From a virus, in IMG/VR virus record IMGVR_UViG_3300027833_000142, positions 1 to 33,065 of that record: 33,065 nucleotides of DNA. The stretch is one strand, 5' to 3'. The notes under the pieces were generated by a model, which did not search any database, was not told the origin of the DNA, and was given only the letters and a program-made list of their open reading frames with translations. Within the stretch, counting starts at the first letter, position 1. Each line of letters starts with the position of its first letter. Below are positions 15,342 through 32,087 of this stretch, one piece after another. A program made the position numbers and the translations under genes.

Positions 15342-15349
15342 AAATAAAT

Positions 15350-17368: not shown

Positions 17369-17369
17369 T

Positions 17370-18188: not shown

Positions 18189-18190
18189 TT

Positions 18191-18553: not shown

Positions 18554-18572
18554 TTAATTAAAAATAATAATA

Positions 18573-18755: not shown

Positions 18756-19464
18756 TAGATACAGATTAAAACCACACGAGATACAAGTCATTCAAAAACT
18801 GCGAGAGCAAGAAATAAGTAATGTATTAGTAATAGGAGATTTGCACGAACCTTTTTGTTTGAACTCGTATCTTGATTGGTGTATTAAACAATATAACACC
18901 TATAATTGCACGGAGATAGTGTTTATAGGCGATGTAATAGACAATCACTACACAAGCTACCACGAAACCTCGGCAGATGGAATGGGTGGCTTAGATGAGC
19001 TAGAATTAGCTATTAAGCGTATATCACGTTGGTACGAAGCTTTTCCAAAAGCAACAGTCATAATTGGAAATCACGACAGACTTATAATGAGAAAGGCACA
19101 AACTAGTGCAATCCCTAGTAAGTGGATTAAATCTTATAAAGAAGTATTAGAGGTTCCTAATTGGAACTTTGTAGAAAGGTACGAATTAAATGGTGTTCAG
19201 TATATACACGGAGAAGGAGGTACTGCAAGAACAAAATGTAGGGCAGATATGATGAATACTGTACAGGGGCATTTACACACACAAGCATATACAGAACATT
19301 ATGTAGGAAAGAAGTTTAGAATCTTTGGTATGCAAGTTGGTTGTGGAATTAATCACAAATCTTATGCTATGGCTTACGCAAAATATGGTAAAAGACCTGC
19401 CGTTGGTTGTGCAGTTGTACTTAATAACGGCGAAACTCCATTGAATTTGTTGATGCCTTTGTAA
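18742..19464 (+). CDS. Calcineurin-like metallophosphoesterase
   Basis: A 240-residue protein with the full metallophosphoesterase motif set: 'GDLHEP' (D33, H35), 'GDVIDNH' (D64), 'GNHD' (N110, H111), 'YIHGE' (H156) and 'GHLH' (H177, H179). These bind a two-metal centre that hydrolyses phosphomono- or diesters. The substrate in phages of this type is not established. Candidates are DNA ends, nucleotides or RNA. The start is GTG at 18742, overlapping the end of the membrane-protein gene by 14 bases. It ends the fibre-lysis transcript ahead of the terminator and the early promoter region. Confidence 0.85.
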   Translation: MERSNRYRLKPHEIQVIQKLREQEISNVLVIGDLHEPFCLNSYLDWCIKQYNTYNCTEIVFIGDVIDNHYTSYHETSADGMGGLDELELAIKRISRWYEAFPKATVIIGNHDRLIMRKAQTSAIPSKWIKSYKEVLEVPNWNFVERYELNGVQYIHGEGGTARTKCRADMMNTVQGHLHTQAYTEHYVGKKFRIFGMQVGCGINHKSYAMAYAKYGKRPAVGCAVVLNNGETPLNLLMPL

Positions 19465-19465
19465 T

Positions 19466-19492
19466 AAATTAGCTTAATTTTCTTTTTTTTTT
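19466..19492 (+). terminator. Probable intrinsic terminator, AT-only stem
   Basis: A 6-bp stem (AAATTA/TAATTT, loop GCT) is followed after T-T-C by ten T. The stem is weak but the T-tract is strong, and the site lies between the last late gene and the early promoter. Confidence 0.45.
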
Positions 19493-19555
19493 AATAAATT
19501 ATAATTTTATTTTAGTAGAATTTACTAGAGTAGAATTATTTTTTTTATATATATC

Positions 19556-19579
19556 AGTTAAAAACTTAGTTAAAAACTT
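19556..19579. repeat. Tandem 12-bp palindromic repeat, putative operator
   Basis: AGTTAAAAACTT occurs twice in immediate tandem (19556-19567 and 19568-19579). Each unit contains the inverted repeat AGTT-AAA-AACT. The second unit runs into the TTG (19578-19580) of the predicted promoter, as a repressor operator would. It lies inside a 170-base AT-rich non-coding stretch that also has AGTAGAATT twice (around 19514 and 19530) and no gene. An origin iteron is the alternative. Confidence 0.5.
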
Positions 19580-19608
19580 GGTTAGTAATTAAAAAAGTTT
19601 TAAATTTG
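19578..19608 (+). promoter_or_regulatory. Bacteroidota-type promoter for the early operon
   Basis: TTG at 19578-19580, a 20-base spacer, then TAAATTTG at 19601-19608. This matches the Bacteroidota primary sigma consensus TTG-N17-23-TAnnTTTG. Transcription would begin near 19615, about 20 bases before the first early gene. The tandem repeat overlapping its upstream element suggests repression. Confidence 0.65.
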
Positions 19609-19634
19609 AATCATAATCAATAAATAATAATATT

Positions 19635-19853
19635 TTGAAAACACAATACAGAGTAATAAATAGGGAAAACAGAAAAGAATACACTTTAAATGCTGAAGAA
19701 CTATCTAATTTTTTTAAGCATCAATTAATGTCGGATTATGCAATATCAAAGCTACCATCTAAAAAAGAATCATTCCTTTTAAATTTGGCTTTAGGTTGTT
19801 TCTCATTAGCTTTTATAGTAACTGCAACTAAAATTGTAATGCGATGGTTATAG
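19635..19853 (+). CDS. Small single-pass membrane protein, unknown
   Basis: A 72-residue protein that is the first gene after the early promoter. Residues 1-45 are polar; residues about 48-65 are a transmembrane helix ('LLNLALGCFSLAFIVTATK'), and the end 'VMRWL' is basic. The proposed start is TTG at 19635; an internal ATG at 19728 would give 41 residues with the helix. It may act on the host envelope early in infection, but nothing in the sequence identifies a role. Confidence 0.45.
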   Translation: MKTQYRVINRENRKEYTLNAEELSNFFKHQLMSDYAISKLPSKKESFLLNLALGCFSLAFIVTATKIVMRWL

Positions 19854-20221
19854 ACAGATTACCTACACCGACAAGACCAACTCCTCAAAGGTTAATAGAG
19901 ATTCAAAAAGAGCATCAAGAAGCATTACAAAAGATATATGATAAATGTGATGACAGGATAGTTCACGCTACTTTACATTATTTTAAAGGAACAAGAGCAG
20001 TAGCAAGACAAGAACATTATTTAAGTGGTGCTAATGGTAAAGCACTCTATTCATCAGATGATGAAAAGTGTTATAACTCTTGTATAATGGTAGGAACAGA
20101 AAGACAGATGGCTATGGATAAAAGCATATATAACATTACAGGTTCTTATTCTTACAATTTAACAGAAGATATGTTAAAACAATATGAAGCTAATAACAAA
20201 AATTTAATAATAATTATATGA
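19844..20221 (+). CDS. Early protein of unknown function
   Basis: A 125-residue protein whose start overlaps the preceding gene by ten bases. The N-terminus is Pro-rich ('LPTPTRPTPQRLIEIQKEHQEAL') and leads into a helix. It has four Cys or nearby Cys/His residues (C35, H41, C76, C80) without a clear zinc pattern. I do not recognise the family. It is part of the early block of small genes in front of the replication genes, the usual site of host-takeover factors. Confidence 0.5.
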   Translation: MVIDRLPTPTRPTPQRLIEIQKEHQEALQKIYDKCDDRIVHATLHYFKGTRAVARQEHYLSGANGKALYSSDDEKCYNSCIMVGTERQMAMDKSIYNITGSYSYNLTEDMLKQYEANNKNLIIII

Positions 20222-20517
20222 AAACAACTTTAGAATTTTACCAATTTAGAGATTGGTTTGAAAAAAATAGACCTAATAATTTTAGTAGAGCAGGAATTGT
20301 TGCTTTATGGGAATATTTAGAAGGTTATGAAGAAGATACAGGAGAAGAAATAGAATTTGACCCTATCGCTTTATGTTGTGAATACACAGAATATGAAAAT
20401 ATACACGAGTTTCATTTAGAATATGAAGCTGAATTATACCCTGATACTGATGCATTAATGGATTATACACAAGTATATTGTTTTGGTACAGAATCATTTA
20501 TAATACAAAATTTTTAA
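20218..20517 (+). CDS. Acidic small early protein, unknown
   Basis: A 99-residue, very acidic protein that starts on the ATGA overlap with the preceding stop. Its sequence ('FRDWFEKNRPNNFSRAGIVALWEYLEGYEEDTGEEIEFDPIALCCEYTEYENI', described here rather than matched) has the pattern of a small phage protein found across many unrelated phages, with the segment W..F....R...FS..G...L..YLE....D.GE.IEFDPIA.CCE. No biochemical function is known to me. High negative charge fits a DNA mimic or a protein inhibitor, but that is speculation. Confidence 0.55.
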   Translation: MKTTLEFYQFRDWFEKNRPNNFSRAGIVALWEYLEGYEEDTGEEIEFDPIALCCEYTEYENIHEFHLEYEAELYPDTDALMDYTQVYCFGTESFIIQNF

Positions 20518-20519
20518 TT

Positions 20520-20702
20520 ATGATATATAAAAACTTACACGATATTAATACTATTGCTAGTCTTGATAATGAAACACTAGTATGTGGTACTGATGAAAAT
20601 GGGAAAGACTTTACCCTTACTCTATCAACATTTGAAATTTTAGAATGGTTTGATACAGAATATTTGAAAGAAAGTCTAATTAAATATATTAAACAAAAAT
20701 GA
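20520..20702 (+). CDS. Small early protein, unknown
   Basis: A 60-residue protein (MIYKNLHDINTIASL...) starting two bases after the previous stop. I chose the ATG at 20520 over an upstream start at 20478, which would overlap the neighbouring gene by 40 bases. It has a beta-hairpin-like middle ('LVCGTDENGKDFTLTLS') and a helical C-terminus. The stop shares ATGA with the next gene. Family not recognised. Confidence 0.5.
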   Translation: MIYKNLHDINTIASLDNETLVCGTDENGKDFTLTLSTFEILEWFDTEYLKESLIKYIKQK

Positions 20703-20902
20703 AAGCAGATGCATTAATGGAATTTTTAAAAAATTTAGAAAATCGTTGTAAAGAAAACAATAGAACATTAAAAGATGTTAATGTTTATTACAGAAAATCA
20801 GATGATGATGATATAGAAAAAACTGATTTTGTAGGTATAGATTTATTTGATAAAAAAACTAACACAAAAGTAGAAAGTATTCTAATTATGGGGGTAAATT
20901 AA
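20699..20902 (+). CDS. Small early protein, unknown
   Basis: A 67-residue protein starting on the ATGA overlap. It has an N-terminal helix ('LMEFLKNLENRCKEN') and two predicted strands ('DVNVYYRK', 'DFVGIDLFDKK'). It is charged throughout. No family is recognised. It is the last of the small genes before the recombination/replication set. Confidence 0.5.
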   Translation: MKADALMEFLKNLENRCKENNRTLKDVNVYYRKSDDDDIEKTDFVGIDLFDKKTNTKVESILIMGVN

Positions 20903-20929
20903 ATTATTAATAAAAAAAATTAAACAAAA

Positions 20930-21310
20930 ATGAAAACAGAAGCAATTAAGGAAAAGTACAAAAAGTACAACCTAGAACCTAGTGATGTATTTAAACATCA
21001 ACACTACTTAATAATCACTAGAAGTGGTATTGAAAAAATACAAGCACAAGAAGATATTACTATGGACTTTCAAGTCATAAAATGTGAAAAAGATTTTGCA
21101 GTTGTTAAGGCAGTTGCAAATAAAAAAGACACATTAATTGAAACCTTTGGTAGTGCTTTAAAAGGGGATTATAAAAATGGTAATTGTAACACTTGGTACG
21201 TTATGGAGATGGCTGAAAAAAGGGCTATGTCTAGGGCAGTATTAAAACTTACAGGGTTTTATGAACTTGGAGTTTTTGGAGAAGATGAATCAGAAGCATT
21301 TAAACAATAA
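20930..21310 (+). CDS. Candidate ssDNA-annealing/recombination protein
   Basis: A 126-residue protein. The C-terminal half 'WYVMEMAEKRAMSRAVLKLTGFYELGVFGEDE' contains the A-x-KRA-x-x-RA helix and the downstream '.GEDE' seen in phage single-strand-annealing proteins of the Rad52/Mgm101/Erf type. The N-terminal half is mixed alpha/beta ('HYLIITRSGIEKIQAQ', 'FQVIKCEKDFAVVKAVA'). The gene lies 23 bases upstream of the SSB gene, the standard partner of annealing proteins. It is shorter than most such recombinases, so the assignment is tentative. Confidence 0.5.
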   Translation: MKTEAIKEKYKKYNLEPSDVFKHQHYLIITRSGIEKIQAQEDITMDFQVIKCEKDFAVVKAVANKKDTLIETFGSALKGDYKNGNCNTWYVMEMAEKRAMSRAVLKLTGFYELGVFGEDESEAFKQ

Positions 21311-21333
21311 TAATAATTAATAAATAAATAAAT

Positions 21334-21675
21334 ATGAGAGTTGAAGGAAAATTAGTAAAAATACTAACACAAGAAACAGGAGTTTCTAAAACAAATAAGG
21401 AATGGAAAAAACAATCTATTGTAATAGAACAAGAAAAAGATTACAATAAAGAAGTTGTAGTTACATTTTTTGGAGATAACATAAGCAACTTACAATCTAA
21501 AAAAATAGGAGATAGAATATCATGTGATATTAATTTATCATCTAGAGAATATAATGGAAAATATTATCATAACATTGATGGTTGGAAATGTTCTTTATAT
21601 AGTAGTAGTGATGATTATATTACTGCTATTGAAGAAGGCACAGACCATAAAGGTAGTGATGACTTACCATTTTAA
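21334..21675 (+). CDS. Single-strand DNA-binding protein (DUF3127-like, OB fold)
   Basis: A 113-residue protein. Residues 1-90 have the OB-fold pattern of the Bacteroidota DUF3127 family ('GKLVKILTQETGVSKTNKEWKKQSIVIE', 'VVVTFFGD', 'ISCDINLSSREYNGKYYHNI'). The acidic C-terminus ends 'DDLPF', the tail that SSBs use to recruit partner proteins. It would coat single-stranded DNA in replication and recombination. This family is characteristic of Bacteroidota and their phages and supports the host call. Confidence 0.8.
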   Translation: MRVEGKLVKILTQETGVSKTNKEWKKQSIVIEQEKDYNKEVVVTFFGDNISNLQSKKIGDRISCDINLSSREYNGKYYHNIDGWKCSLYSSSDDYITAIEEGTDHKGSDDLPF

Positions 21676-21676
21676 G

Positions 21677-22192
21677 ATGACTGATAGAGAAAAATTTATA
21701 AACATATGCGACCTTACTACAAAGTTAGTAGGGTTGCATCAAGGTGCATTATCTGAAAAAACTAGAAAACAAGAATATCAAACACCTAGAATGGTAGCAT
21801 CTTTAATTGCTATACTAGAAAAAGAAATACACTATAAAATTATAGCTAAAGTTTTAAATAGAGATAGGAGTTTAATTTATCATTACGAAAAAAAACATAA
21901 ACACAATTATTCATCTATACCAAAGTATAGAGATATGTTTAATCTAGTATACAATTCTTTTAAAAAAATTGATACATCTAAAAAAGTTTTTAAGACTAGG
22001 GAAGATTTAATGAGTTGTTTAAAGTTAGCAGGTATTAAGTCTGTAGTTAAACCACAGGTAAAAGTAAAGATTAAAAGTGGAAATGCACTATTTACATTAA
22101 ATACAAACTATTTTGATTTTTCAAACAATATTAATATTATTAACAAATCATTAAAAGATTATGATTACAAAACTAATATAATAACATTATGA
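21677..22192 (+). CDS. DnaA domain IV-like DNA-binding protein
   Basis: A 171-residue protein; I start it at the ATG at 21677, right after the SSB stop, because the longer frame from 21524 lies inside the SSB gene. Residues about 37-75 ('TPRMVASLIAILEKEIHYKIIAKVLNRDRSLIYHYEKKH') resemble the C-terminal DNA-binding domain of DnaA, including the RDRS-x-I-x-H basic loop matching the DnaA GRDHTT-V signature. The rest has no AAA+ ATPase motif. It may bind an origin as part of the replication start complex with the next gene, or act as a regulator. Confidence 0.6.
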   Translation: MTDREKFINICDLTTKLVGLHQGALSEKTRKQEYQTPRMVASLIAILEKEIHYKIIAKVLNRDRSLIYHYEKKHKHNYSSIPKYRDMFNLVYNSFKKIDTSKKVFKTREDLMSCLKLAGIKSVVKPQVKVKIKSGNALFTLNTNYFDFSNNINIINKSLKDYDYKTNIITL

Positions 22193-22821
22193 AAGCATTA
22201 CTTAGTAGTACTGCTTTTTTAGTGGTTAATAAAAATTTAGCTAAAAACATAGGTTTGAAAGAAACTATATTACTTGCTGATTTAATAAGTAAAGAAGAAT
22301 ACTTTATTAATAATGGAATGACTGATGGTTGGTTTTTTAATACTGAAGCGAATATACAGAAAGACACTACGCTTACACCATATCAACAACGAAATGCTCT
22401 TAAAACGCTTAAAAAGTATGAAATAATAGAAACTAGGCGTAAGGGTGTTCCTGCTAAACAATACTTTAAAATAAATGAAGAACAAGTTGTTCAGTTTCTT
22501 AACAACAAGTCCTTAACAAACTTAACTACTATTAATAAGAATAAAGAAATAACATTAAATAATAAGTTATCTATAAAGGAAAAATTTATTAATCAGGTTA
22601 TGTTTTTTGATTACCCAAAAGAAATGAAGCAAGATTTTATTAATTATTGGACAGAGGGAAAAAATAAGATGAGGTATCAAAAGCAGGTAACATTTGAAAT
22701 TAAACTTAGATTAGAAAGGTGGTCAAAAAATTCTGCTAAGTGGGATAAACCAAAATTCAAAGGAACATCTAAGTTAGATGCACAAATTAATGAATGGCAA
22801 AAAGCGAAAGAGTTATTATGA
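22189..22821 (+). CDS. Replisome organizer / replication initiation protein
   Basis: A 210-residue protein. Residues 1-100 form a winged-helix domain of the phage replisome-organizer type: 'STAFLVVNKNLAKNIGLKETILLADLISKE', 'GWFFNTEANIQKDTTLTPYQQRNALKTLKKYEIIETRRKGVP', 'KQYFKI'. A linker rich in Asn/Thr/Lys and a C-terminal helical domain (around 130-205) follow, as in DnaD-like initiators. It would bind the origin and load the host helicase. It starts on ATGA overlap with the DnaA-like gene. No helicase or polymerase is encoded, so it should recruit the host replisome. Confidence 0.75.
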   Translation: MKALLSSTAFLVVNKNLAKNIGLKETILLADLISKEEYFINNGMTDGWFFNTEANIQKDTTLTPYQQRNALKTLKKYEIIETRRKGVPAKQYFKINEEQVVQFLNNKSLTNLTTINKNKEITLNNKLSIKEKFINQVMFFDYPKEMKQDFINYWTEGKNKMRYQKQVTFEIKLRLERWSKNSAKWDKPKFKGTSKLDAQINEWQKAKELL

Positions 22822-22976
22822 ATATAGTTGAAGAATTAAGGCAGAAGATTTATTTTGAAAAGTTATACAAAAGAAACACCATTGAATTAAATAACTATTT
22901 TAAATATAGTGGAAAGGTTGAAAAGAGTATTAATCTAAAAAAAATTACACCTAATTACAGGTTGAAAAAATTATGA
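22818..22976 (+). CDS. Small basic protein, unknown
   Basis: A 52-residue basic protein (MNIVEELRQKIYFEKLYKR...). The ATG at 22818 sits on the ATGA overlap with the previous stop and is preferred to an in-frame ATG at 22794 inside the neighbour. It consists of one long helix and a Lys-rich end. It could be a small replication accessory protein. Family not recognised. Confidence 0.45.
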   Translation: MNIVEELRQKIYFEKLYKRNTIELNNYFKYSGKVEKSINLKKITPNYRLKKL

Positions 22977-23341
22977 AAACATTACAAGAAGAAAACAATA
23001 AAGAACTAACAGAAAAGGTTTTAGACTTGATAGCTAAGACATCAGTAGAGTTAGGACATAGGTCAGATGCAAAGACTATGGCATCTTTAGCTAAGATATT
23101 TGCAGAAGATTTACAAAAAGAAAATAGATTTAAACGTATGACAATAAATCAAATACAAGATGCCTTTCATATAGGTGTAAGGTATTGTGAGTTTGAACCA
23201 TTTTTAAATATTAAAACATTTTTTAGATTTATTATATCACACAAAAAAACAATTAACGATGCTTATTATCAAGTACATACACTAAACCAAAACCCTAACC
23301 AAGTTCTTTATTATCAGGAACCATTAAAATTATTAAAATGA
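22973..23341 (+). CDS. Replication-region helical protein, possible helicase loader
   Basis: A 122-residue helical protein with a recognisable Bacteroidota-phage pattern: 'MASLAKIFAEDLQKENRFKRMTINQIQDAFHIGVRY' followed by 'FLNIKTFFRFIISHKKTINDA'. Its place after the replisome organizer is where lambda P or DnaC-like loaders are found, but there is no Walker motif. Helicase-loading or initiation-accessory function is inference from position. Starts ATGA-overlapped. Confidence 0.45.
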   Translation: MKTLQEENNKELTEKVLDLIAKTSVELGHRSDAKTMASLAKIFAEDLQKENRFKRMTINQIQDAFHIGVRYCEFEPFLNIKTFFRFIISHKKTINDAYYQVHTLNQNPNQVLYYQEPLKLLK

Positions 23342-23616
23342 AAACAATTAAAATAACTAAAGAAGAAATAAAAACAGGAAAAGATGCAATTAAATGGCAT
23401 TTGAAAAACTATGGAAGTATAACAAGTTTAGAAGCCATTAAAGAATATGGTGTTACAAGACTTGCGAGTATCATATTTTATTTAAAAGAAGATGGTTACC
23501 CTATTCATAGCACAGATTTACAACGTAAAACTAGATTCGGTAGAACAACTACAATATCTAAATATCTTTATTTTAAACCTGCACCTGTTTTTGAACAAAA
23601 ATTAATATGGGGTTAA
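23338..23616 (+). CDS. Helix-turn-helix DNA-binding protein (HTH_39-like)
   Basis: A 92-residue protein with a winged-helix pattern: 'AIKWHLKNYGSITSLEAIKEYGVTRLASIIFYLKEDGYPI', the 'G.ITSLEA...YG.TRLA..I..L...G..I' form of small phage HTH proteins. The tail contains 'RFGRTTTISKYLYF', the wing. It starts on ATGA overlap. It may be a regulator or a replication/recombination accessory. These proteins are common next to NinG-like genes, as here. Confidence 0.7.
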   Translation: MKTIKITKEEIKTGKDAIKWHLKNYGSITSLEAIKEYGVTRLASIIFYLKEDGYPIHSTDLQRKTRFGRTTTISKYLYFKPAPVFEQKLIWG

Positions 23617-24017
23617 AGACTATCAGTAAGTTAAAAAAAGATTTAGACAAGTGGTTTAGCTTATACATTAGGTTGCGTAATGCAAATAACTTAGGTGTTA
23701 CACAATGTTTTACTTGTCATAAAACTGATAGTTATAAAAGTTTACAAAACGGACATTTTCAAAGCAGAAGGCATCACACAACAAGATGGAATGAAGTTAA
23801 TTGTCAAGTACAATGTGTTAAATGTAACATGTTTAATCAGGGTGAACAATTTAAATTCGGTATATATTTAGATGCAAAATATGGGGTAGGAACTGCTGAA
23901 TCATTAGAATTTAAAGCAAGACAAACAATTAAGTTTACTAGAGTAGATTATATGGAAAAATTGAGTTATTACAAAGAGGTTGTTAAAAACTTAAAAAAAG
24001 AAAAAAATCTAGAATAA
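23607..24017 (+). CDS. NinG/Rap-like recombination endonuclease
   Basis: A 136-residue protein with the NinG pattern: a helical N-terminus, C34-x2-C37, 'LQNGHFQSRR' (H50), 'TTRWNEVNCQVQCVKCN' (N65, C70, C73), then 'YLDAKYGVG'. The paired CxxC motifs around an HNH-like core are those of lambda NinG (Rap), a structure-directed nuclease acting on recombination intermediates. Together with the annealing candidate and the SSB it makes a small recombination set. It starts at ATG 23607, overlapping the previous gene by ten bases. Confidence 0.8.
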   Translation: MGLKTISKLKKDLDKWFSLYIRLRNANNLGVTQCFTCHKTDSYKSLQNGHFQSRRHHTTRWNEVNCQVQCVKCNMFNQGEQFKFGIYLDAKYGVGTAESLEFKARQTIKFTRVDYMEKLSYYKEVVKNLKKEKNLE

Positions 24018-24038
24018 AATTTTTTATATATTTGGTTT

Positions 24039-24395
24039 ATGCTTAAACCAATTTATGCAAGTGCTGAACACGAAGTTATCGTAAGTGAGTATATGAACTT
24101 AATGATTTCTTTTGTGCAGGAAACTTCATCAAATAATAAGTATCAAAATTTTTTAGAAGTAGTAAATGAAATAATAGATTATCATAATCGTTATGGGGAA
24201 GATATGTTTGCTGAAAATTGGAACGATTGGTTATTAGTTTTACCTATAAATTTATCAGTTTGTTGTAATGGTTATTTTGCAGCATTAGAAACAAAAAGAA
24301 ATGCAGAATCTTTAAGAACGTATAAGGTATTGCTAGACAGGTACTTAGAAGAATTAGTTGAAAGCTTGTCTAAATTAAAATTTAAAAATGACTGA
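24039..24395 (+). CDS. Unknown helical protein
   Basis: A 118-residue, largely helical, acidic protein ('VIVSEYMNLMISFVQETSS', 'LRTYKVLLDRYLEELVESLSKLKF'). It has no motif I recognise. A TATATTTG at 24027-24034, matching the TAnnTTTG element, lies just before the start, but I see no upstream TTG partner. It overlaps the sigma-like gene by a few bases and may be its partner, for example an anti-sigma or co-factor. This is only a positional guess. Confidence 0.4.
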   Translation: MLKPIYASAEHEVIVSEYMNLMISFVQETSSNNKYQNFLEVVNEIIDYHNRYGEDMFAENWNDWLLVLPINLSVCCNGYFAALETKRNAESLRTYKVLLDRYLEELVESLSKLKFKND

Positions 24396-24942
24396 AGTAT
24401 ATCAAGCAGTAGCAGATTGTAGAAAAACATTTGTAAAAATGTCCTACTCTTTTACTCAAGATATAAACGAGATTGAAGAAGTGGTTCAGGAATGCCTTAT
24501 GTATTTTTTACAAATGAACCCTGAAACTCTAAAGAAGATATGGGTTAAAGATGGAAAGAAAGGACTAATCAGTTATGGGGCAGTAGTTTTACGTAGAAGT
24601 TTTACATCAGTGCGAAGCCCATATTATTATAAGTATAAAAAATATTACAAACATATAGATGAACAGACTAGCAATATTACTTATGAAATAACAGGGGGTA
24701 ATAGTAAATCACATCTATACAATATACCTAACCCTGAAGTTAATCCTCAATGGACTAAATTAGAAACAATAGATAAAGCATTAGATAATTTTTATTGGTA
24801 CGATAGAGATGTTTTTAAGTTATATTATTATGAAGGCAATACACTTACAGGATTAGCAAAAAAAACAGGTATAAGCAGGAATAGTTTATTTACAACTATA
24901 GATAAGGTCAGGGAAGAACTTAAAAAAATATTAGATGAATAA
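24388..24942 (+). CDS. Sigma-70-like factor (phage-encoded)
   Basis: A 184-residue protein. Residues about 10-75 resemble sigma region 2 ('IEEVVQECLMYFLQ', 'KGLISYGAVVLRRSFTSVR'). Residues about 125-182 form a region-4-like helix-turn-helix ('VFKLYYYEGNTLTGLAKKTGISRNSLFTTIDKVREELKK'). The domain order is that of a small ECF-type sigma. Such proteins are seen in several flavobacterial phages. It is a natural candidate to direct host RNA polymerase to the CTATTATATA sites found at five gene starts, all of them ahead of morphogenesis or modification genes. No experimental support is available here, and region 2 is divergent. Confidence 0.65.
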   Translation: MTEVYQAVADCRKTFVKMSYSFTQDINEIEEVVQECLMYFLQMNPETLKKIWVKDGKKGLISYGAVVLRRSFTSVRSPYYYKYKKYYKHIDEQTSNITYEITGGNSKSHLYNIPNPEVNPQWTKLETIDKALDNFYWYDRDVFKLYYYEGNTLTGLAKKTGISRNSLFTTIDKVREELKKILDE

Positions 24943-25333
24943 GTTTTTTGTAAGTGATGAAGTTTATAATGATAGAATATCTATATGTAAAAGTTGTGAT
25001 TATTATTTTAGACCGACAGGAAGTTGCAAAGTTTGTTTATGTTTTATGTCAATAAAAGCTAGGATTAGTTTAATGGAATGCCCACAGAAATATTGGTTAA
25101 AAACAAAAGAACTAGACCAACCTGATGGAATACCTGAAGAATTAATTGAAGAAGTTTTAGTAATATGGAAAGATATTGACAAAGGTGTGGCTAAGAATCT
25201 AGCAGTAAAAAAAAGAATGATAACATTATTTAACACAATATACGGAACTAACTATGACACAGGAACAAGTTGTAGTTCTTGTTTAAGTGATTGTTTTAAA
25301 GGAATTAAAAGAATATATGAAAAATACAAATAA
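24935..25333 (+). CDS. Zinc-binding protein, unknown
   Basis: A 132-residue protein. The N-terminal 50 residues hold C18-x2-C21, C31-x2-C34-x-C36 and C49 ('CKSCDYYFRPTGSCKVCLCFMSIKAR'), a zinc-ribbon-like site. The C-terminal end has another cluster, C113-x2-C116-x3-C120. The middle is a helical segment. The start shares bases with the sigma-like gene. Similar small Cys-rich proteins occur in many phages without known function. It could bind DNA, RNA or polymerase. Confidence 0.55.
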   Translation: MNKFFVSDEVYNDRISICKSCDYYFRPTGSCKVCLCFMSIKARISLMECPQKYWLKTKELDQPDGIPEELIEEVLVIWKDIDKGVAKNLAVKKRMITLFNTIYGTNYDTGTSCSSCLSDCFKGIKRIYEKYK

Positions 25334-25553
25334 GATACCAAATTATTATATAGGTAAACACTATAAGTACGAAGCTAGAAAAGTTATATCTGATTGGGAG
25401 TTAAGTTGGAATATTGGTAATGCAGTTACATATTTGTTAAGGGCGAATTTTAAGCATAAAAACCCTGAAGAATGTATAACAAAAGCTATAAATCATTTAC
25501 AATTTGAATTAGATGAATTAAAATTAAACAAAAGAAATGTCAAAAAAAAATAA
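25317..25553 (+). CDS. DUF3310-like protein
   Basis: A 78-residue protein with 'NYYIGKHYKYEARKVISDWELSWNIGNAVTYLLRANFKHKNPEECITKAINHLQFELDEL', described by its pattern: HY.YE....I....LS.N.GNA..YL.RA..K....E...KA..HL..EL. This is the DUF3310 form found in many phages, sometimes linked to nucleotide kinases. I start it at the ATG at 25317; an upstream start at 25287 would add ten residues in the preceding gene. Function is unknown. Confidence 0.65.
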   Translation: MKNTNKIPNYYIGKHYKYEARKVISDWELSWNIGNAVTYLLRANFKHKNPEECITKAINHLQFELDELKLNKRNVKKK

Positions 25554-25704
25554 ATTATACTGCTCTAAAATTTATAACATTTTTGAAATGCAGTTTGGTT
25601 TTTCCTATCCTGTTGCAGCTTGGACTACAATGGGAAGGAAAGACACAAGAACAAAAGCTAACGGAAAACAGAGGTTAGAACTAAATAAGAAAGCTATATG
25701 TTAA
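25537..25704 (+). CDS. Small basic protein, unknown
   Basis: A 55-residue reading frame (MSKKNKLYCSKIYNIF...KKAIC) that overlaps the DUF3310-like gene by 17 bases and the zinc-ribbon gene by 7 bases. It is basic and aromatic-rich ('FEMQFGFSYPVAAWTTMGRKDTR' in its middle). The stepwise overlaps with both neighbours and the absence of another use for the interval support a real gene. No family recognised. Confidence 0.5.
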   Translation: MSKKNKLYCSKIYNIFEMQFGFSYPVAAWTTMGRKDTRTKANGKQRLELNKKAIC

Positions 25705-25928
25705 AATATCAATGTAATAAATGTGAGATACAGAAAGAATTAAGCAGGGTGGTAATGAAAGTAATAGAAGGTAAGGTGGTTAATATTGGAACTGAATGCC
25801 CTGAGTGTGGAGAATATATGCAAGAGATTTATAAGTTCGGTGGGTTTCCATCATTAAAAAGAACAGAGCCTACCTTATCAAATAAGAATGATAAACTATG
25901 GAGTAGAGCAAAAGACAGATTAAAATAA
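25698..25928 (+). CDS. Zinc-ribbon protein
   Basis: A 76-residue protein with C6-x2-C9 and C34-x2-C37 ('YQCNKCE', 'TECPECGEY'), a classic zinc ribbon, followed by a basic helical tail ('NKDKLWSRAKDRLK'-like). It is the last gene of the early/replication block. Small zinc ribbons in phages often bind host RNA polymerase or DNA, but the target here cannot be told. Confidence 0.6.
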   Translation: MLKYQCNKCEIQKELSRVVMKVIEGKVVNIGTECPECGEYMQEIYKFGGFPSLKRTEPTLSNKNDKLWSRAKDRLK

Positions 25929-25941
25929 ATAACAAACAATT

Positions 25942-25951
25942 CTATTATATA
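25942..25951 (+). promoter_or_regulatory. CTATTATATA motif, copy 4 (putative phage promoter core)
   Basis: An exact copy, ending two bases (CT) before the ATG at 25954. It heads the base-modification and terminase block and marks the switch from early to late genes. The upstream sequence is AAACAATT. Confidence 0.55.
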
Positions 25952-25953
25952 CT

Positions 25954-26514
25954 ATGAAACTAAAAATCAATGAGTTAAAACCAAACGTAAGCAATCCGAG
26001 GATAATTAAAGAATCTAAATTTAAAAAACTTGTTAAGTCTATTAAAGATTTTCCTGAAATGTTAGAACTGCGACCAATAATCGTAGATGAAGATATGACA
26101 ATTCTAGGAGGAAATATGAGGTACAAAGCAAGTGTTGAGGCAGGGCTGAAAGAAGTACACGTAAAAGTAGCCAAAGGACTAACAGAAGAACAGAAACAAG
26201 AATTTATAGTAAAAGACAACGTCGGTTTTGGAGAGTGGGATTGGAGTATATTGGCTAATGAATGGGATAATATTAAGCTAGGAGATTGGGGAATGGATGT
26301 TTGGCAACCTGAAAAAGAAGTTGATTACTCTATATTAGATGACATAGACTTAGGCTCAACTTTAGATGATAAAACTTCAGCAGTCAAGAGAGGTATAGTT
26401 ATAGAGTTTGAAGCTAATGAATATGATGAAGCTAACGAACTAATTACACAAGCAAGGAAAGGCGGAAAGAATGTCGGTGTAATTGTATTAAACGCTTTTA
26501 GGAATGAAGCATAA
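25954..26514 (+). CDS. ParB-like nuclease-domain protein
   Basis: A 186-residue protein. Residues 1-80 form a ParB/Srx-type domain: 'NPR' (14-16), 'RPIIVDEDMTILGGNMRYKASVEAGL' with G52-G53-N54-x-R56. Residues about 85-125 ('KDNVGFGEWDWSILANEWDNIKLGDWGMD') match the module after ParB domains of phage methyltransferase fusions. Here no methyltransferase follows; instead a 50-residue beta/alpha domain ends the protein. In phage base-modification gene clusters, ParB-like proteins are common neighbours of TET/JBP enzymes and glycosyltransferases, as here. It may recognise DNA or assist the modification enzymes. It is probably not a chromosome-partitioning protein, as no ParA is present. Confidence 0.75.
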   Translation: MKLKINELKPNVSNPRIIKESKFKKLVKSIKDFPEMLELRPIIVDEDMTILGGNMRYKASVEAGLKEVHVKVAKGLTEEQKQEFIVKDNVGFGEWDWSILANEWDNIKLGDWGMDVWQPEKEVDYSILDDIDLGSTLDDKTSAVKRGIVIEFEANEYDEANELITQARKGGKNVGVIVLNAFRNEA

Positions 26515-27184
26515 TGTTTATGTAATATCAGCAGGTAGATATGACAAACTTCCTTTTACTTTAGAACAAAAAAAGAAATACATATTTTGTGTAAAGAACG
26601 GAGAGAGTAAATTGTATAAAGCAAATGATTGTAAAAATGTATTTGAAACAGGTAACTTAATGAGAAGTAGAAATTTTGCATTACAACACGCTTTTGATAA
26701 TAACAAAATATGCGTTCAATTAAGTGATGATATAAAAAAAGTTGTAGTAAATAAAAACTTTGGAGAACCTAAAAGAGTTGAACTTGATTATGCGATAGAA
26801 GATATTGTTTCAAAATTTAATAAAGTTAAAGGAATAAAGTTGTTAGGCATACCACCAACAGATAATTATTTTTTTGCTAACAAAATAGTAAGTACTAATA
26901 CTTTTTGTATAGGCGACATGTTGTTTGTAAAACCAAATGAATTAAGATTTGATGAACAATTAACATTGAAAGAAGATTACGATTACACATTACAACATAA
27001 AGAAAGAGGAGATGTTATCAGGTATCAAAAATATCTATTCTCTTTTGAACATTACTCTAATAAAGGTGGTGCCGTTGATGTGAGAGATGACAAAGAAGAA
27101 CAAAAGAATATACAAATACTAAAATCTAAATGGGGGGATAAGATTAAACTAAACCCTAAAAGAAAAAATGAAATATTAATATGA
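26504..27184 (+). CDS. Putative DNA-base glycosyltransferase (TET/JBP-associated type)
   Basis: A 226-residue protein with GT-A features: 'VYVISAGRYDKLP' as the first strand, 'LMRSRNFALQHAF' (nucleotide-sugar side helix), 'ICVQLSDDIKKV' with a DxD-like D75-D76 after the strand, and 'LTLKEDYDYTLQH' (E157-D158, D160) as the probable catalytic segment. It overlaps the ParB gene by 11 bases and the dioxygenase by 4. This fits the TET/JBP-associated glycosyltransferases described in comparative surveys of phage DNA modification (Iyer and colleagues). The likely reaction is transfer of a sugar to a hydroxymethyl base made by the downstream dioxygenase. Glycosylation of a virion protein is the alternative. 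Confidence 0.7.
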   Translation: MKHNVYVISAGRYDKLPFTLEQKKKYIFCVKNGESKLYKANDCKNVFETGNLMRSRNFALQHAFDNNKICVQLSDDIKKVVVNKNFGEPKRVELDYAIEDIVSKFNKVKGIKLLGIPPTDNYFFANKIVSTNTFCIGDMLFVKPNELRFDEQLTLKEDYDYTLQHKERGDVIRYQKYLFSFEHYSNKGGAVDVRDDKEEQKNIQILKSKWGDKIKLNPKRKNEILI

Positions 27185-27990
27185 ATATAATTAAACTTGA
27201 AAAAGTAGAACACAACCGAAAGGTGGGTAAGAGATGCGAATACATTGAACCTAACGTAAAAGAAGATTGTTTATTAGAATCTGATGGGGAGGTAATAGGT
27301 TTTTATATCAAAGATGTAAACAAGTATAGTAAAAAGCTAGGGGCATTGATAGATATAGCCAATAAAGAGTTTAGAAGCAAGAACGTGCCTAAGTCATTAT
27401 TAGAAAGAAGTGATGTGTTCAGTAAAGTTTACAAAGAAGGTATGTCAAGGAAAGATGCTATGGCAACAGGAACTGTGCAGATGAGTGCAATACTTGGCTC
27501 AATACCACCTAAACCACATATGAGAAGACCTTACCCTACAATATCTTCAGTACACAGAGAACCAAAAGCAAAGACATTTATAAAAGCTATGTGGGGTGCT
27601 TGTGTTGAAGCTGAAAAGATAGTAAAAGAATTAACACCTAAATTATATGACAGGCAAATAGAACTCTTTAAAGAAATAAAAAAAGATTGGAAGTTTGGTA
27701 ATATGTTTACAAGCAGTATATCAAATTTTAATATTTCGGCACCTTTTCACAGAGATACAGGAAACTTAGAAGGCACAGTAAACATTATCCTTACGAAAAG
27801 AAACAATGCTAATGGTGGTTGTTTAAACGTACCTGACTATAACGCAACATTTGAACAAGCTGATAACTCTATGCTTGTGTATCCTGCTTGGAGAAACGTA
27901 CACGGAGTAACACCAATTAAACAAATAGCTGATGATGGTTATAGAAACTCATTAATATTCTATCCATTAAAAGCATTTAAAGGAATATAA
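27181..27990 (+). CDS. TET/JBP-like 2-oxoglutarate/Fe(II) dioxygenase (DNA base oxidation)
   Basis: A 269-residue protein. The C-terminal half shows the double-stranded beta-helix residues of the TET/JBP family: 'SAPFHRDTGN' (H190-x-D192, Fe ligands), 'GGCLNVPDYNATFEQADNSMLVYPAWRNVHGVTP' in segments with H241 as the third ligand, and 'GYRNSLIFYPL' with R255 to hold 2-oxoglutarate. The N-terminal half is helical with a variable DNA-binding role. The family oxidises the methyl group of thymine (JBP) or 5-methylcytosine (TET). The gene shares bases with the glycosyltransferase upstream and precedes the small terminase. No C5-methyltransferase is encoded, so thymine is the more likely substrate. 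Confidence 0.82.
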   Translation: MNIIKLEKVEHNRKVGKRCEYIEPNVKEDCLLESDGEVIGFYIKDVNKYSKKLGALIDIANKEFRSKNVPKSLLERSDVFSKVYKEGMSRKDAMATGTVQMSAILGSIPPKPHMRRPYPTISSVHREPKAKTFIKAMWGACVEAEKIVKELTPKLYDRQIELFKEIKKDWKFGNMFTSSISNFNISAPFHRDTGNLEGTVNIILTKRNNANGGCLNVPDYNATFEQADNSMLVYPAWRNVHGVTPIKQIADDGYRNSLIFYPLKAFKGI

Positions 27991-27991
27991 T

Positions 27992-28345
27992 ATGGACGAA
28001 AGTAGACACATAAAAAAGGAAACTATACTAAAGGCGTTAGAAAAATCATTAGGTGTTGTAACAGTTGCCTGTAAATCAGCAGATGTTCCACGTAGCACAT
28101 ATTACAAATGGTTAAAAGAAGATGAATCATTTTCTAAAGAAGTTAAAGATATTGAAAACATAGCATTAGACTTTGGAGAAAGCCAATTACATAAACAGAT
28201 AGGAGATGGAAACACTTCGGCTACTATATTTTTTTTAAAGACAAAGGGAAAGAAAAGAGGTTACATTGAACGAAGCGAGTTAGATTTAACATCAGGAGAT
28301 GAACCAATTAAAATTAATGTAAATATCAAAGGAATTGAATATTGA
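27992..28345 (+). CDS. Terminase small subunit
   Basis: A 117-residue protein with an N-terminal helix-turn-helix ('VTVACKSADVPRSTYYKWLKED') of the phage small-terminase type, then a helical oligomerisation segment and 'GDGNTSATIFFLKTKGKKRGYIER', common in this family. It lies one base after the dioxygenase stop and overlaps the large terminase gene by 11 bases. It would recognise the packaging site in concatemeric DNA. If DNA is hypermodified, this protein must recognise the modified form. Confidence 0.85.
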   Translation: MDESRHIKKETILKALEKSLGVVTVACKSADVPRSTYYKWLKEDESFSKEVKDIENIALDFGESQLHKQIGDGNTSATIFFLKTKGKKRGYIERSELDLTSGDEPIKINVNIKGIEY

Positions 28346-29645
28346 TACTGAATTTACCCATACTCAAGGACAAGCGATTGAATACTTGTTTGATGATAAG
28401 ACTACAGAAGTTTTGTTCGGTGGTGCAGCAGGTGGTGGTAAATCTTGGGTTGGTTGTAGTTGGTTAATTCTTTTATGTCTTAAATATCCTAAGACAAGAT
28501 ACTTAATGGGCAGGTCTAAATTAGATGCTCTTAAAAAGACTACACTAAACACTTTCTTTGAAGTATGTCAAGAGTGGGGTATAATTGCAAACAAGCATTA
28601 CAATTTTAATGCAGGTTCTAACATTATTAAGTTTTATAATGGTAGTGAGATAATACTTAAAGACTTGTTCTTATATCCATCAGACAGAAACTTTGATAGT
28701 TTGGGTTCATTAGAAATAACTGCTGCTTTTATAGATGAGGCAAATCAAATAACAGAGAAGGCAAAGAACATAGTAGCATCTAGAATGAGATATAAGTTAG
28801 ACCAATATAATATTATACCTAAACTACTAATGACTTGTAACCCTGCTAAGAATTGGGTATATACACAATACTACAAACCTGCAAAGGAAGGAACACAAAA
28901 ACCATATAGACAATTTATTCAAAGCTTAGTTGATGACAATGAGTTTATTTCTAAGCATTATAAGAAACAACTTTTAACATTAGATGAATTAAGTAAGCAA
29001 AGATTATTATTCGGTAATTGGGAATATGATGCAACTAATGATAATTTAATAGATTATGATGCTATACTTAATTTATTTAATCAAAATGGTGTTGAGGGAG
29101 ATAAATACATAAGTTGTGATGTGGCTCGTTTTGGAAGCGATAAGACAGTTATAATGTATTGGGAAGGGCTTCATATTAAAAAGATAAGAAGTATCCTTAA
29201 ATCAGCAGTAAACGAAGTTGTAGATGAGATTAGGGTAATGCAACAACAAAACAATGTAAGATTAACAAATATTATAGTTGATGAAGATGGTGTTGGTGGT
29301 GGTGTTAAAGATTATATGCGTTGCAGAGGTTTTGTCAATAATTCTAGGGCAATGAAAGGGGAGAACTATCAAAACCTTAAAACTCAATGTTATTATAAGT
29401 TAGCTGATTTAATTAACGAAGGACAGATTGGTATTGATTGCCCTGATATTAATACTAAAAACCATATCATTGAAGAACTAGAACAAGTAAGGACTAAAGA
29501 TGCTGACAAAGATAACAAGCTACAAATCATACCTAAGGACAATGTAAAAGATATTATAGGCAGGTCGCCTGATTACGCTGATGCTCTAGCTATGAGAATG
29601 TATTTTGAAATAGATGGTAACTTTGGTAAGTATTTTGTGCAATAA
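28335..29645 (+). CDS. Terminase large subunit
   Basis: A 436-residue protein with ATPase Walker A 'GGAAGGGKSW' (K36), Walker B 'AAFIDEA' (D134-E135), motif III around 'LLMTCNPAKNW', and nuclease acidic residues D262 ('CDVARFGSDK'), D316 ('IIVDEDGVGGG') and D416 ('SPDYADALAM'). It pumps DNA into the prohead and cuts it. The start appears to be TTG at 28335, because no ATG exists before residue 54 and the N-terminal segment up to Walker A is needed for the adenine pocket. Followed by a hairpin terminator. The circular, apparently permuted genome with no fixed ends suggests headful packaging. Confidence 0.93.
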   Translation: MNIDTEFTHTQGQAIEYLFDDKTTEVLFGGAAGGGKSWVGCSWLILLCLKYPKTRYLMGRSKLDALKKTTLNTFFEVCQEWGIIANKHYNFNAGSNIIKFYNGSEIILKDLFLYPSDRNFDSLGSLEITAAFIDEANQITEKAKNIVASRMRYKLDQYNIIPKLLMTCNPAKNWVYTQYYKPAKEGTQKPYRQFIQSLVDDNEFISKHYKKQLLTLDELSKQRLLFGNWEYDATNDNLIDYDAILNLFNQNGVEGDKYISCDVARFGSDKTVIMYWEGLHIKKIRSILKSAVNEVVDEIRVMQQQNNVRLTNIIVDEDGVGGGVKDYMRCRGFVNNSRAMKGENYQNLKTQCYYKLADLINEGQIGIDCPDINTKNHIIEELEQVRTKDADKDNKLQIIPKDNVKDIIGRSPDYADALAMRMYFEIDGNFGKYFVQ

Positions 29646-29647
29646 AA

Positions 29648-29676
29648 AAAGGTGTAACTCTAAGAATTACACCTTT
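29648..29676. terminator. Intergenic hairpin after the large terminase, possibly bidirectional
   Basis: A 10-bp stem (AAAGGTGTAA/TTACACCTTT) with a 9-base loop starts three bases after the terminase stop. A-rich sequence lies before it and TTT after it, so it has T-tracts on both strands, short on the + strand. It would end the modification/terminase transcript. Confidence 0.7.
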
Positions 29677-29740
29677 AACTAAACAAAAACTTTAAGAAAA
29701 CAGGGCAAATATACAATTTTAAACTAAATAACAATTAATT

Positions 29741-29750
29741 CTATTATATA
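29741..29750 (+). promoter_or_regulatory. CTATTATATA motif, copy 5 (putative phage promoter core)
   Basis: An exact copy, ending two bases (TT) before the ATG at 29753 of the tail chaperone gene and 64 bases after the terminase hairpin. It is the only promoter-like feature in the 107-base gap. Confidence 0.6.
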
Positions 29751-29752
29751 TT

Positions 29753-30397
29753 ATGAGATTGAAAATTAACAAAGATGACAAGCAAGAGGTTTACACGCTT
29801 ATAAATAGTTGGGAAGATGTAACTCTTGACAAGTGGGTAAAGTTAATTAGCAAAAAAAAACAAAGTAAAAGCACAGAAGCATTAGAAACTATAAGTTTAC
29901 TATCAGATATACCTAAAGATTTGATTAAAGAATTAGCTATTGAAGATGTAGCATTAATAATGAAAAAAATATCTTCTTTACAAGAAAAAGAAGGAACTGA
30001 ATTAAAAAAAATTATTAAAGTAAATGATGTTGAGTATGGCTTCCACCCAAACCTAGAAGAAATAACATTAGGAGAGTATGCTGATATTGAAAACTATTTA
30101 AAAAATGGAGTAGAAAAAAACCTACCTAAATTAATGTCAGTACTTTACAGACCTGTAACAGAAAAAGATGGTAAGAATTATTCTATTGAAGCATACGGAA
30201 TAAGTGATTCAAGAATGAGAGCAGAGAAGTTTAAAAAGATGAAAGCATCAGAAGTTAATAGTGCGTTGGTTTTTTTTTGGATTTTCGCGAAAGAGTTATT
30301 AATGACTTTGCCATCATTTTTAATGGTACAGAGCAAGAAAATACTAGACAAAGCACAGATGAACAATTTGCAGACAAGTGGGGTTGGTTCGGAGTAA
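29753..30397 (+). CDS. Tail assembly chaperone G-type protein (0 frame)
   Basis: A 214-residue helical protein directly in front of the tail gene set. The pattern 'SWEDVTLDKWVKLI', 'LLSDIPKDLIKEL', 'FHPNLEEITLGEYADIENYLKNG' and 'LPKLMSVLYRPV' is that of the G-type tail chaperones of Bacteroidota siphophages. At residues 173-175 (V-F-F) lies a T9 slippery site where a fraction of ribosomes should slip back one base into the frame of the 81-residue C-terminal segment. The plain product ends 'NLQTSGVGSE'. The role is to keep the tape measure soluble for tube assembly. Confidence 0.7.
   Translation: MRLKINKDDKQEVYTLINSWEDVTLDKWVKLISKKKQSKSTEALETISLLSDIPKDLIKELAIEDVALIMKKISSLQEKEGTELKKIIKVNDVEYGFHPNLEEITLGEYADIENYLKNGVEKNLPKLMSVLYRPVTEKDGKNYSIEAYGISDSRMRAEKFKKMKASEVNSALVFFWIFAKELLMTLPSFLMVQSKKILDKAQMNNLQTSGVGSE
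30271..30277 (+). promoter_or_regulatory. Slippery heptamer for -1 frameshift (T TTT TTT)
   Basis: Nine T run from 30270 to 30278. In the 0 frame the codons are GTT TTT TTT TGG, so the heptamer T-TTT-TTT is in the correct phase for simultaneous slippage to -1. The -1 frame is open from 30262 to 30519 after a TAG at 30259-30261, and the 0 frame stops at 30395. A small palindrome TTTCGCGAAA follows at about 30283-30292 but is too weak to be called a stimulatory structure. Confidence 0.7.
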
Positions 30398-30522
30398 TGT
30401 ACAGATTAACAAATGGAGAGATAATTAATTTAGAAAGGATAACTAATTTAAGTTTGTATGAATGTTTAACTTGGCTTACTTATGAAACAGATTTAAACGA
30501 AACTAAAGCAGTACAGAAATGA
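30277..30522 (+). CDS. Tail assembly chaperone T-type extension (-1 frame of G)
   Basis: An 81-residue segment (LDFRERVINDFAIIF... from the slippage point) carries the 'KWGWFGVMYRLTNGEI' pattern typical of the T part of Bacteroidota phage tail chaperones. It is most likely made only as a fusion of about 256 residues with the first 175 residues of G. The first codon is TTG and there is no ATG until 30397, where ATG overlaps the G stop (TAATG) and could give a 41-residue separate product, but this would remove the WGWF region. Its stop overlaps the next ATG (ATGA). Confidence 0.7.
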   Translation: MDFRERVINDFAIIFNGTEQENTRQSTDEQFADKWGWFGVMYRLTNGEIINLERITNLSLYECLTWLTYETDLNETKAVQK

Positions 30523-31013
30523 CATATTTTAAAGATTATAATAACACGATAGATACATTGAAACAATTAGGTGATAACCATTACCAAATTAAAACAGTAT
30601 CATCAGGCGATATATATGAGATAGATTTAGAAAAGAACACAATGTACCCATTGATGCATATAAACCCTGTAAACGCAATAGCAGGTACTCACGAAATGAC
30701 ATTAAACTTTCAAATCTTTATTATGGACTTAGTGTTTCCTGACCAATCAAATGAGCAAGAAGTGTTATCAGATAACCTGCAAATATGTAATGACTTGATA
30801 GGAACTTTTAAAAATGGGGAAAGCTTGTTATTATCTAATCAAGGTATAAATGCTATACCTAAATACTTTACAGAAGGCGACATAACTTTAGAACCATTTA
30901 CAGAACGTTTTGACAATTCAGTAACAGGTTGGGTGTTTACTTTACCAATAGTTATAGAAAATGAATACAACACTTGTATAGCACCACAAGCAACAACTGA
31001 TGCAATACATTAA
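30519..31013 (+). CDS. Tail completion/terminator-like protein
   Basis: A 164-residue mixed alpha/beta protein ('TIDTLKQLGDNHYQIKTVSSGDIYEIDLEK', 'LICNDLIGTF'-like helix, 'WVFTLPIVIENEYNTC'). Position after the chaperone gene and the alpha/beta pattern resemble tail terminator or tail-completion proteins of flavobacterial phages. It starts on ATGA overlap and ends on TAATG. The role is inferred mainly from context. Confidence 0.5.
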   Translation: MTYFKDYNNTIDTLKQLGDNHYQIKTVSSGDIYEIDLEKNTMYPLMHINPVNAIAGTHEMTLNFQIFIMDLVFPDQSNEQEVLSDNLQICNDLIGTFKNGESLLLSNQGINAIPKYFTEGDITLEPFTERFDNSVTGWVFTLPIVIENEYNTCIAPQATTDAIH

Positions 31014-31081
31014 TGTTTAAACTTAAAATAGGAAAATTAACAATACAATTAATACCACCAAAAATAACTTATAAATTATAA
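31013..31081 (+). CDS. Tiny ORF (22 aa) between tail genes
   Basis: MFKLKIGKLTIQL... runs 22 codons from the TAATG overlap to the stop just before the next gene. It fills the gap exactly and is basic and amphipathic. Other phages of this kind have very small genes here, but the size makes proof impossible from the sequence alone. It could be a coupling leader keeping ribosomes on the message. Confidence 0.35.
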   Translation: MFKLKIGKLTIQLIPPKITYKL

Positions 31082-31083
31082 TT

Positions 31084-31533
31084 ATGGCAGATTTAACAAC
31101 AACACTATCTGAATCAGTAACACTTAATGGTGCAGTCAGAGGTACAACAAACACAGTAACAACTACAGGAATCAACAATGTATATGAAAGAATTGTTACT
31201 TGTACACATTCACAAGAAACTACTTTAGTAGCTTTTAACACTAATTCTTATGGTGCAGTAGTACAATTAGACAAAGAAGATGTAAGGTATATTCGGATTA
31301 CAAATTTAAATGCAACTATATCTGTAGAAATTGCAGTAGTAGGTGCAGCAACATTATATCAAGTAACTTTGAAAGCAGGTCAATCACATATATTAGGTGC
31401 AGCAGATAATATTATGTTAGCAGAAGCAGACACCACACCAAGTTTTGGAACTATGGCTGCCTTACAAAATATTATGGTAAAACCTGTTGGAACAACTAAT
31501 GTTGATTTAGAAGTATTTGTAGCTAGTGTATAG
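31084..31533 (+). CDS. Structural protein, beta-sandwich, unknown role
   Basis: A 149-residue, Thr/Val/Ala-rich beta protein ('TTTLSESVTLNGAVRGTTNTVTTTGIN', 'VRYIRITNLNATISVEIAVVG', 'VTLKAGQSHILG'). It resembles small virion proteins in tail regions of flavobacterial and other marine phages, possibly a tail or capsid accessory. No enzyme motif. Its TAG overlaps the GTG start of the next gene. Confidence 0.5.
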   Translation: MADLTTTLSESVTLNGAVRGTTNTVTTTGINNVYERIVTCTHSQETTLVAFNTNSYGAVVQLDKEDVRYIRITNLNATISVEIAVVGAATLYQVTLKAGQSHILGAADNIMLAEADTTPSFGTMAALQNIMVKPVGTTNVDLEVFVASV

Positions 31534-32087
31534 TGATAGCGTTAGAAAGATATTTAAATAGCTTTGGTAAAAGTGTTGTAAACAAATCAAAGGGAATACT
31601 AGACAGGAAAAAGAAAGTAGTAACAGGTGCTTTAAAAGATAGTATTAAATTTAAATTAGTTAAAACATCACAGGGTATTAATGTAGAATTTAGTATGCTT
31701 GATTATGGTAAATTTATGGATAAGGGAGTTTCAGGTGTTGGTGGTACAATTAAATCAGGAAAAAATAAAGGTAACTATACAGGTATAAAAGATTTTGTTA
31801 ATTACAAAGGAGAAAGAATGAAAAGTCCTTATAGTTATAAAAGTAAAATGCCACCAACTAAAGCATTAGACAAATGGACAGTAATGCGAGGTATAGCACC
31901 AAGAGATGCAAAAGGTAGGTTTATGGTAAGAAGTGGTTTAAAGTTCGCAATAGCTAGAACTATTTTTATAAAAGGTATTGAAGGGGTTAGCTTCTTTCAA
32001 AAACCTTTAGGATTAGAATTAAGAGGTTTTGCAACACAAGTAGGAAAAGCAATTAAAGAAGATATATTAAATAATATTAGAAAATGA
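31533..32087 (+). CDS. HK97 gp10-like neck / tail-component protein
   Basis: A 184-residue basic protein. 'TGALKDSIKFKLVKTSQGINVEFSMLDYGKFMDKGVSGVGG' has the HK97 gp10/minor tail pattern (a helix, a strand, then '..YG.F.D.G..G'). The family sits at the head-tail interface or in the tail completion complex. The start is GTG at 31533 on the overlap with the preceding TAG. The end overlaps the next gene (ATGA). Confidence 0.6.
   Translation: MIALERYLNSFGKSVVNKSKGILDRKKKVVTGALKDSIKFKLVKTSQGINVEFSMLDYGKFMDKGVSGVGGTIKSGKNKGNYTGIKDFVNYKGERMKSPYSYKSKMPPTKALDKWTVMRGIAPRDAKGRFMVRSGLKFAIARTIFIKGIEGVSFFQKPLGLELRGFATQVGKAIKEDILNNIRK

Follow-up and report, generated by a model that had tools for sequence, protein, structure and literature searches.

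The T9 run and the two reading frames

The window (the whole 33,065-nucleotide stretch of viral DNA analyzed here) carries, with the gene for the large terminase subunit on one side and a series of tail genes in the same orientation on the other, a G-like open reading frame that contains a run of nine T residues and is overlapped in the -1 frame by a second, T-like reading frame (Table 1). The run was located exactly where the initial annotation had placed it, and it spans codons 173-176 of the G-like frame, GTT TTT TTT TGG, which encode Val-Phe-Phe-Trp. That annotation had also pointed to the heptamer T_TTT_TTT being in the right phase, which is true but is not additional evidence, since any T9 holds the heptamer in each of the three phases. 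As it had described, the -1 frame opens just ahead of the site, at 30262, directly 3' of a TAG at 30259-30261; the frame ends in a stop codon at 30520-30522, which overlaps the ATG of the next gene at 30519 as ATGA. There is no ATG in the -1 frame upstream of 30397, and the TTG at 30277, inside T9, is the sole start-like codon of this frame ahead of the ATG at 30397. The WGWF motif is present in the -1 frame and is lost if translation starts at that ATG, again as proposed. It is conserved, in the form W-x-W/Y, in 142 of 144 filtered relatives (see below), but we could not confirm that it was previously known from tail proteins of Bacteroidota phages. Joining the two frames at the run gives a product of 256 aa, in agreement with the size first estimated.

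Table 1. Features of the recoded locus and its neighborhood in the window
Feature	Position	Strand	Remarks
Large terminase subunit, upstream neighbor	28335..29645	+	Terminase_3, E = 1.3e-16; phrog_2, E = 1.3e-32
G-like ORF, 0 frame	29753..30397	+	214 aa; residues 1-175 common to the fusion, then a 0-frame tail of clade-dependent length
T9 run	30270-30278	+	Inside ORF 29753-30397; in-phase heptamer T_TTT_TTT at 30271-30277
T-like part, -1 frame	30262..30522	+	81 codons from TTG 30277; conserved FR, KWGWF, LTWLxYExDL
Predicted G-T fusion	29753..30522	+	256 aa; junction ALVFF|LDFRERV
Next gene (hypothetical protein), homologue of P12024L_42	30519..31013	+	phrog_30964, E = 0.0012; ATGA overlap
Tail-completion/neck-like protein, homologue of P12024L_43	31533..32087	+	phrog_29822, E = 4.5e-19
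Probable tape-measure protein	4188..5855	+	phrog_32985, E = 2.3e-4; phrog_167 (tape measure), E = 0.003

The same G gene holds a run of nine A residues (29852-29860, Lys-Lys-Lys) that is not kept by relatives in the alignment. This looks like a chance run, and it stands in contrast to the invariant T9.

The two ends of the window (1-95 and 32971-33065) overlap by 95 bases with 96.8% identity, and the contig probably holds the whole circular map, about 32.97 kb long, put together from strains that differ slightly; what appears as a gene split across the window ends (32084..574) is one gene. On a circular map, which the overlap of the ends makes probable, the tape-measure gene lies about 6.6 kb 3' of the fusion, in the same orientation and separated from it by other tail genes. 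The initial annotation had put the pair at the head of the tail operon. Tail genes do follow on the same strand, but the pair adjoins the terminase gene and lies at this distance from the tape measure. Homologues in the cultured Nonlabens phage P12024L inform two of the neighboring assignments: P12024L_43 has a further match to phrog_5 (tail completion or Neck1, E = 4e-4), and P12024L_50, the homologue of 4188-5855, matches the tape-measure family phrog_9483 (E = 5.6e-12). The tape-measure call for 4188-5855 is probable and rests mainly on P12024L_50, being weak in the window itself.

Conservation of the run and of both frames

Relatives were gathered with the G part, the T part and distant members as queries, and both domains were required. 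This gave 343 loci, of which 263 have distinct cores and 144 remained after redundancy filtering; they reach down to about 25% protein identity and include the cultured Nonlabens phages P12024L and P12024S. The T run is 9, 10 or 12 residues long in all 343 loci and never shorter. Each of the 343 also has an in-phase T_TTT_TTT and a second domain that lies in the -1 frame with respect to G, and in none does the 0 frame close until well after the run. Conservation of the run in relatives had been proposed at the outset as a check, and a broken run with both frames kept as the case that would speak against recoding; the run was kept in all 343 loci, and no locus of the latter kind was found among them. 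Nor was the second contrary outcome named there, a read-level indel giving a run of 8 or 10 T, encountered. The distance from the slip to the G stop, by contrast, ranges from 55 to 208 nt and differs by clade, a pattern to be expected where constraint falls mostly on the shared part and on the -1 part. One apparent same-frame case, L140, was dismissed and left out, its G frame being broken near codon 110, upstream of the run. The longest run of the family, a T12 (L301, Ile-Phe-Phe-Phe-Tyr), shows the same frame relation as other members.

Among members with an annotated genome, Nonlabens phage P12024L (JQ823123.1) is the most distant, at 26% identity in G. It has T9 at the same place, a -1 product that reads FFLSFRERL...KWGWYHTF, both domains and the same neighbors, and we place it in the same family. 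In its record, however, gp40 and gp41 appear as separate hypothetical proteins, with gp41 (9519-9686) annotated from a late ATG, so that the shift was missed; the P12024S record has the same arrangement. PHROGs files the two proteins as separate families without assigned function, phrog_32199 and phrog_38404, which are matched by the fusion (E = 1.7e-9) and by the -1 part (E = 0.0059), respectively. P12024L_41 is, by this comparison, the C-terminal piece of a predicted recoded fusion with gp40, and the annotated genomes of P12024L and P12024S would then carry a T part cut at the wrong start.

We also compared substitution rates by codon position in 69 sequences of identical layout (977 pairs). 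In the 0-frame region 5' of the run, the rates at the three G codon positions were 0.150, 0.094 and 0.328, and in the T-only region past the G stop, those at the three T codon positions were 0.073, 0.080 and 0.262. The corresponding rates in the overlap, again for the three positions of the T codon, were 0.167, 0.118 and 0.229; the most variable base there is the third of the T codon, which is the second of the G codon. Overlap substitutions thus follow the codon pattern of the -1 frame, the more constrained of the two coding frames. Over the same 977 pairs, the 9 nt around the heptamer showed zero substitutions. The evidence at the sequence level shows that both frames are under protein-level constraint, that the run is invariant and that there is no other conserved route into the -1 frame. 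Outside the G genes, the non-redundant coding sequence of these phages contains 1 T run of at least nine, against 10.6 expected. Retention of the run and of both frames at every related locus, together with the rarity elsewhere of T runs of at least nine, makes the arrangement more than chance.

Proposed slippage at the run and the probable role of the pair

The reading that we favor, and consider likely, is that of a recoded pair working like lambda G/GT, with a ribosomal -1 slip at T9 and with G and GT as tail-assembly chaperones. Most translation of the G-like frame would give the 214-aa protein, while at T9 a minority of events would shift to the -1 frame, the two tRNA-Phe of the ribosome slipping back one base on T_TTT_TTT. 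The product would be the 256-aa fusion, with an 81-aa, probably helical T-like domain; we infer both the shift in vivo and its minor rate. G would then coat the tape measure and T would recruit the tube protein. The predicted outcome in these phages is one gene with a short and an extended protein, as for the lambda tail-assembly chaperones.

The slippery site of lambda is GGGAAAG, whereas here it is a run of T9 to T12; the 0 frame here extends 55-208 nt beyond the slip, and the pair adjoins the terminase gene, some 6.6 kb from the tape-measure gene. Both systems have a small protein of the late genes that is extended in the -1 frame at a slippery site, so that the fusion gains an extra T domain (PMC5009743 for lambda), and in both the pair lies 5' of the tape-measure gene, a probable one in the window, in the same orientation. 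No sequence similarity was found between the window pair and lambda G/GT. The HK97 pair gp13/gp14 (Pfam Phage_TAC_1; structure 2ob9) also uses a -1 frameshift, annotated in NC_002167, and 2ob9 is tied as the best fold match for G residues 1-83 (Z = 3.9). It differs in that gp13 matches PF06222 at E = 1.2e-60 while the window protein has no significant Pfam match, and in that gp13/gp14 lie between the major tail gene and the tape-measure gene; hhalign gave no match to HK97 gp13.

The same fusion could also arise by transcriptional slippage, in which one U is gained (or two are lost) when RNA polymerase transcribes T9, and translation then proceeds normally; with one extra U, the protein would be identical to the product of a ribosomal slip. 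Slippage of this kind is described at A9/T9 runs in IS elements and in Thermus dnaX (PMC1088944), and the likeness to those cases is a homopolymer of at least nine where polymerase can change frame, for which the present run is a candidate. A phage tail pair using transcriptional slippage was not found in the literature searched. We regard this reading as possible, though unlikely.

Several observations favor it. All 144 filtered loci have nine or more T's in the run, although seven would be enough for a ribosomal slip, and each of the three phases is represented (139 loci in phase 1, 4 in phase 0 and 1 in phase 2). Loss of a flanking T on one side is made good on the other, as in TTT TTT TTT GCT (L151) and GGT TTT TTT TTG (L256). 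Conserved residues can, however, explain the flanking T's, with V, I, L or F before FF and a Leu after it in the -1 frame. Nine is also the length at which many bacteria show selection against slippage (PMC1088944). Avoidance of T runs was scored as observed/expected (O/E) in 599 other non-redundant genes of these phages. T8 is scarce whether it lies in phase (O/E 0.18) or out of phase (0.32), and runs of at least nine stand at 0.09. Loss of T8 regardless of phase implies a phase-independent cost, as polymerase slippage would cause; replication instability of long runs, however, could also produce such a cost. T7, on the other hand, is mildly avoided, and in phase only (0.75, compared with 0.99 out of phase), which points to ribosomal slippage on the same motif. 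Three of the other T runs of at least eight in the window (8951-8959, 19483-19492 and 19539-19546) fall between ORFs of annotated size, in line with the avoidance of T runs of at least eight inside genes. Also against a transcriptional slip, loss of one base by the polymerase would give a +1-frame waste product as well.

Three-prime RNA structure is a common stimulator of -1 frameshifting, though not one required at all sites. No downstream stem-loop or pseudoknot was predicted here: single-sequence folds of the window and four relatives gave z values between -0.9 and 1.1, and RNAalifold on 26 sequences gave 0 pairs, with programs that do not model pseudoknots. U_UUU_UUU is less shifty than A_AAA_AAG in Escherichia coli (PMC5009743). 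Conditional on the fusion being made, we judge a ribosomal slip likely and keep it as the default, with transcriptional slippage a lesser but real prospect; if polymerase slips on T runs of at least nine, the chaperone ratio would be set at transcription. Because the run is invariably nine T's or longer and no RNA stimulator was found, the locus offers a clean natural setting in which to ask which of the two, ribosome or polymerase, sets a tail-chaperone ratio by slipping.

With regard to the role of the pair, the initial annotation had named it a G-GT tail chaperone pair. Strong support for the recoded fusion comes from the conserved run, the two conserved frames and the conserved -1 codon pattern, but the chaperone identity draws on context and weak similarity. 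G/GT pairs are usually recognized by a -1 extension on a small late protein in a phage that has a tape-measure gene (PMC5009743). AlphaFold2 gave a G model with a mean pLDDT of 74 and a weak, all-helical T model with a pLDDT of 65. When G residues 1-83 were compared with 118 PDB chains by VIA-align, only 3 reached Z = 2; the HK97 tail assembly chaperone 2ob9 (74 residues, rmsd 4.0) tied for the top with an uncharacterized Bacillus protein, 3fgx, at the Z given above, which is weak on the tool's own scale. Foldseek found no match below E = 1 in the PDB, so that HK97 shows up only in VIA-align; in BFVD, it found an entry named "tail assembly chaperone" (probability 0.99, E = 0.024). Among 40 family members, 3 weakly matched Phage_TAC_7 and 9 weakly matched phrog_166 ("tail protein"), with a best E of 0.004. 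Searches of Pfam and NCBIfam returned no significant chaperone match (NCBIfam none at all), and a sequence search of solved structures returned no match.

The fusion might be real and the pair serve otherwise, for example as a minor structural, scaffold or packaging-linked protein after the terminase. Adjacency to the terminase gene and the lack of a significant chaperone-family match would suit such a role, but tail genes follow directly on the same strand and the weak fold and family hints all lead toward tail chaperones, and we consider this reading rather improbable. By analogy and context, a chaperone role is probable, and the pair is best filed as a new, unannotated family working like lambda G/GT. 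This would give a recoded fusion and a likely function to two PHROG families without an assigned function, both of them common in marine flavobacterial phages.

Separate start, sequencing error and in-frame fusions

We also considered whether T might be a separate protein with its own start, at TTG 30277, at ATG 30397 or at a non-standard codon. Both named codons are present in the window, and the P12024L annotation begins gp41 at a late ATG. In many relatives, however, TTG 30277 is replaced by TTA, CTA or CTG, and Met 30397 is not conserved, being Leu or absent in other relatives. Ahead of the W-x-W motif, the -1 frame lacks an ATG in 128 of the 144 filtered loci, and in 48 it lacks ATG, GTG and TTG alike, which makes independent initiation unlikely. 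A separate start would also leave unexplained both the invariant T run and the existence of an in-frame fused relative (described below), and we hold it to be very improbable. Homopolymers are prone to sequencing error, but the chance that the two frames are a single ORF whose true run is 8 or 10 is practically negligible, given that the same frame relation recurs throughout the 343 loci, which come from many samples, and in the records of two cultured phages, that runs of 9, 10 and 12 are each in the phase needed and that the 0 frame stays open well beyond the run in all loci. In terms of sequence, a recoded fusion is close to certain.

A natural in-frame fusion occurs in a Flavobacteriaceae genome (L257, at L348:8442-9332), where a protein of 297 aa aligns across the junction in one frame. 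Its G part was matched by hhalign at E = 1.1e-6, and the T half rests on a four-sequence alignment and on position; in hhalign, the T profile against this protein alone matched the WGWF region only, and not significantly. In BFVD, several predicted viral structures 226-267 residues in length are matched by the G model and by the T model alike. Known from predicted structures rather than from DNA, these entries suggest further in-frame fusions.

In Flavobacterium phage 6H (BFVD R9VW65), at about 10050-10927 on the minus strand, AGN89393.1 and an unannotated stretch after it look like a G part and a related T part in different frames. The junction has no clear site and a single -1 step would not bridge it; the record may contain an indel, or the shift may be of another kind, and this phage was left out of the family evidence. 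Three contigs of these phages (L166, L167 and L168) sit in metagenome-assembled genomes labeled Pseudooceanicola and Euryarchaeota; they are probably misbinned viral contigs, and the labels do not indicate true hosts.
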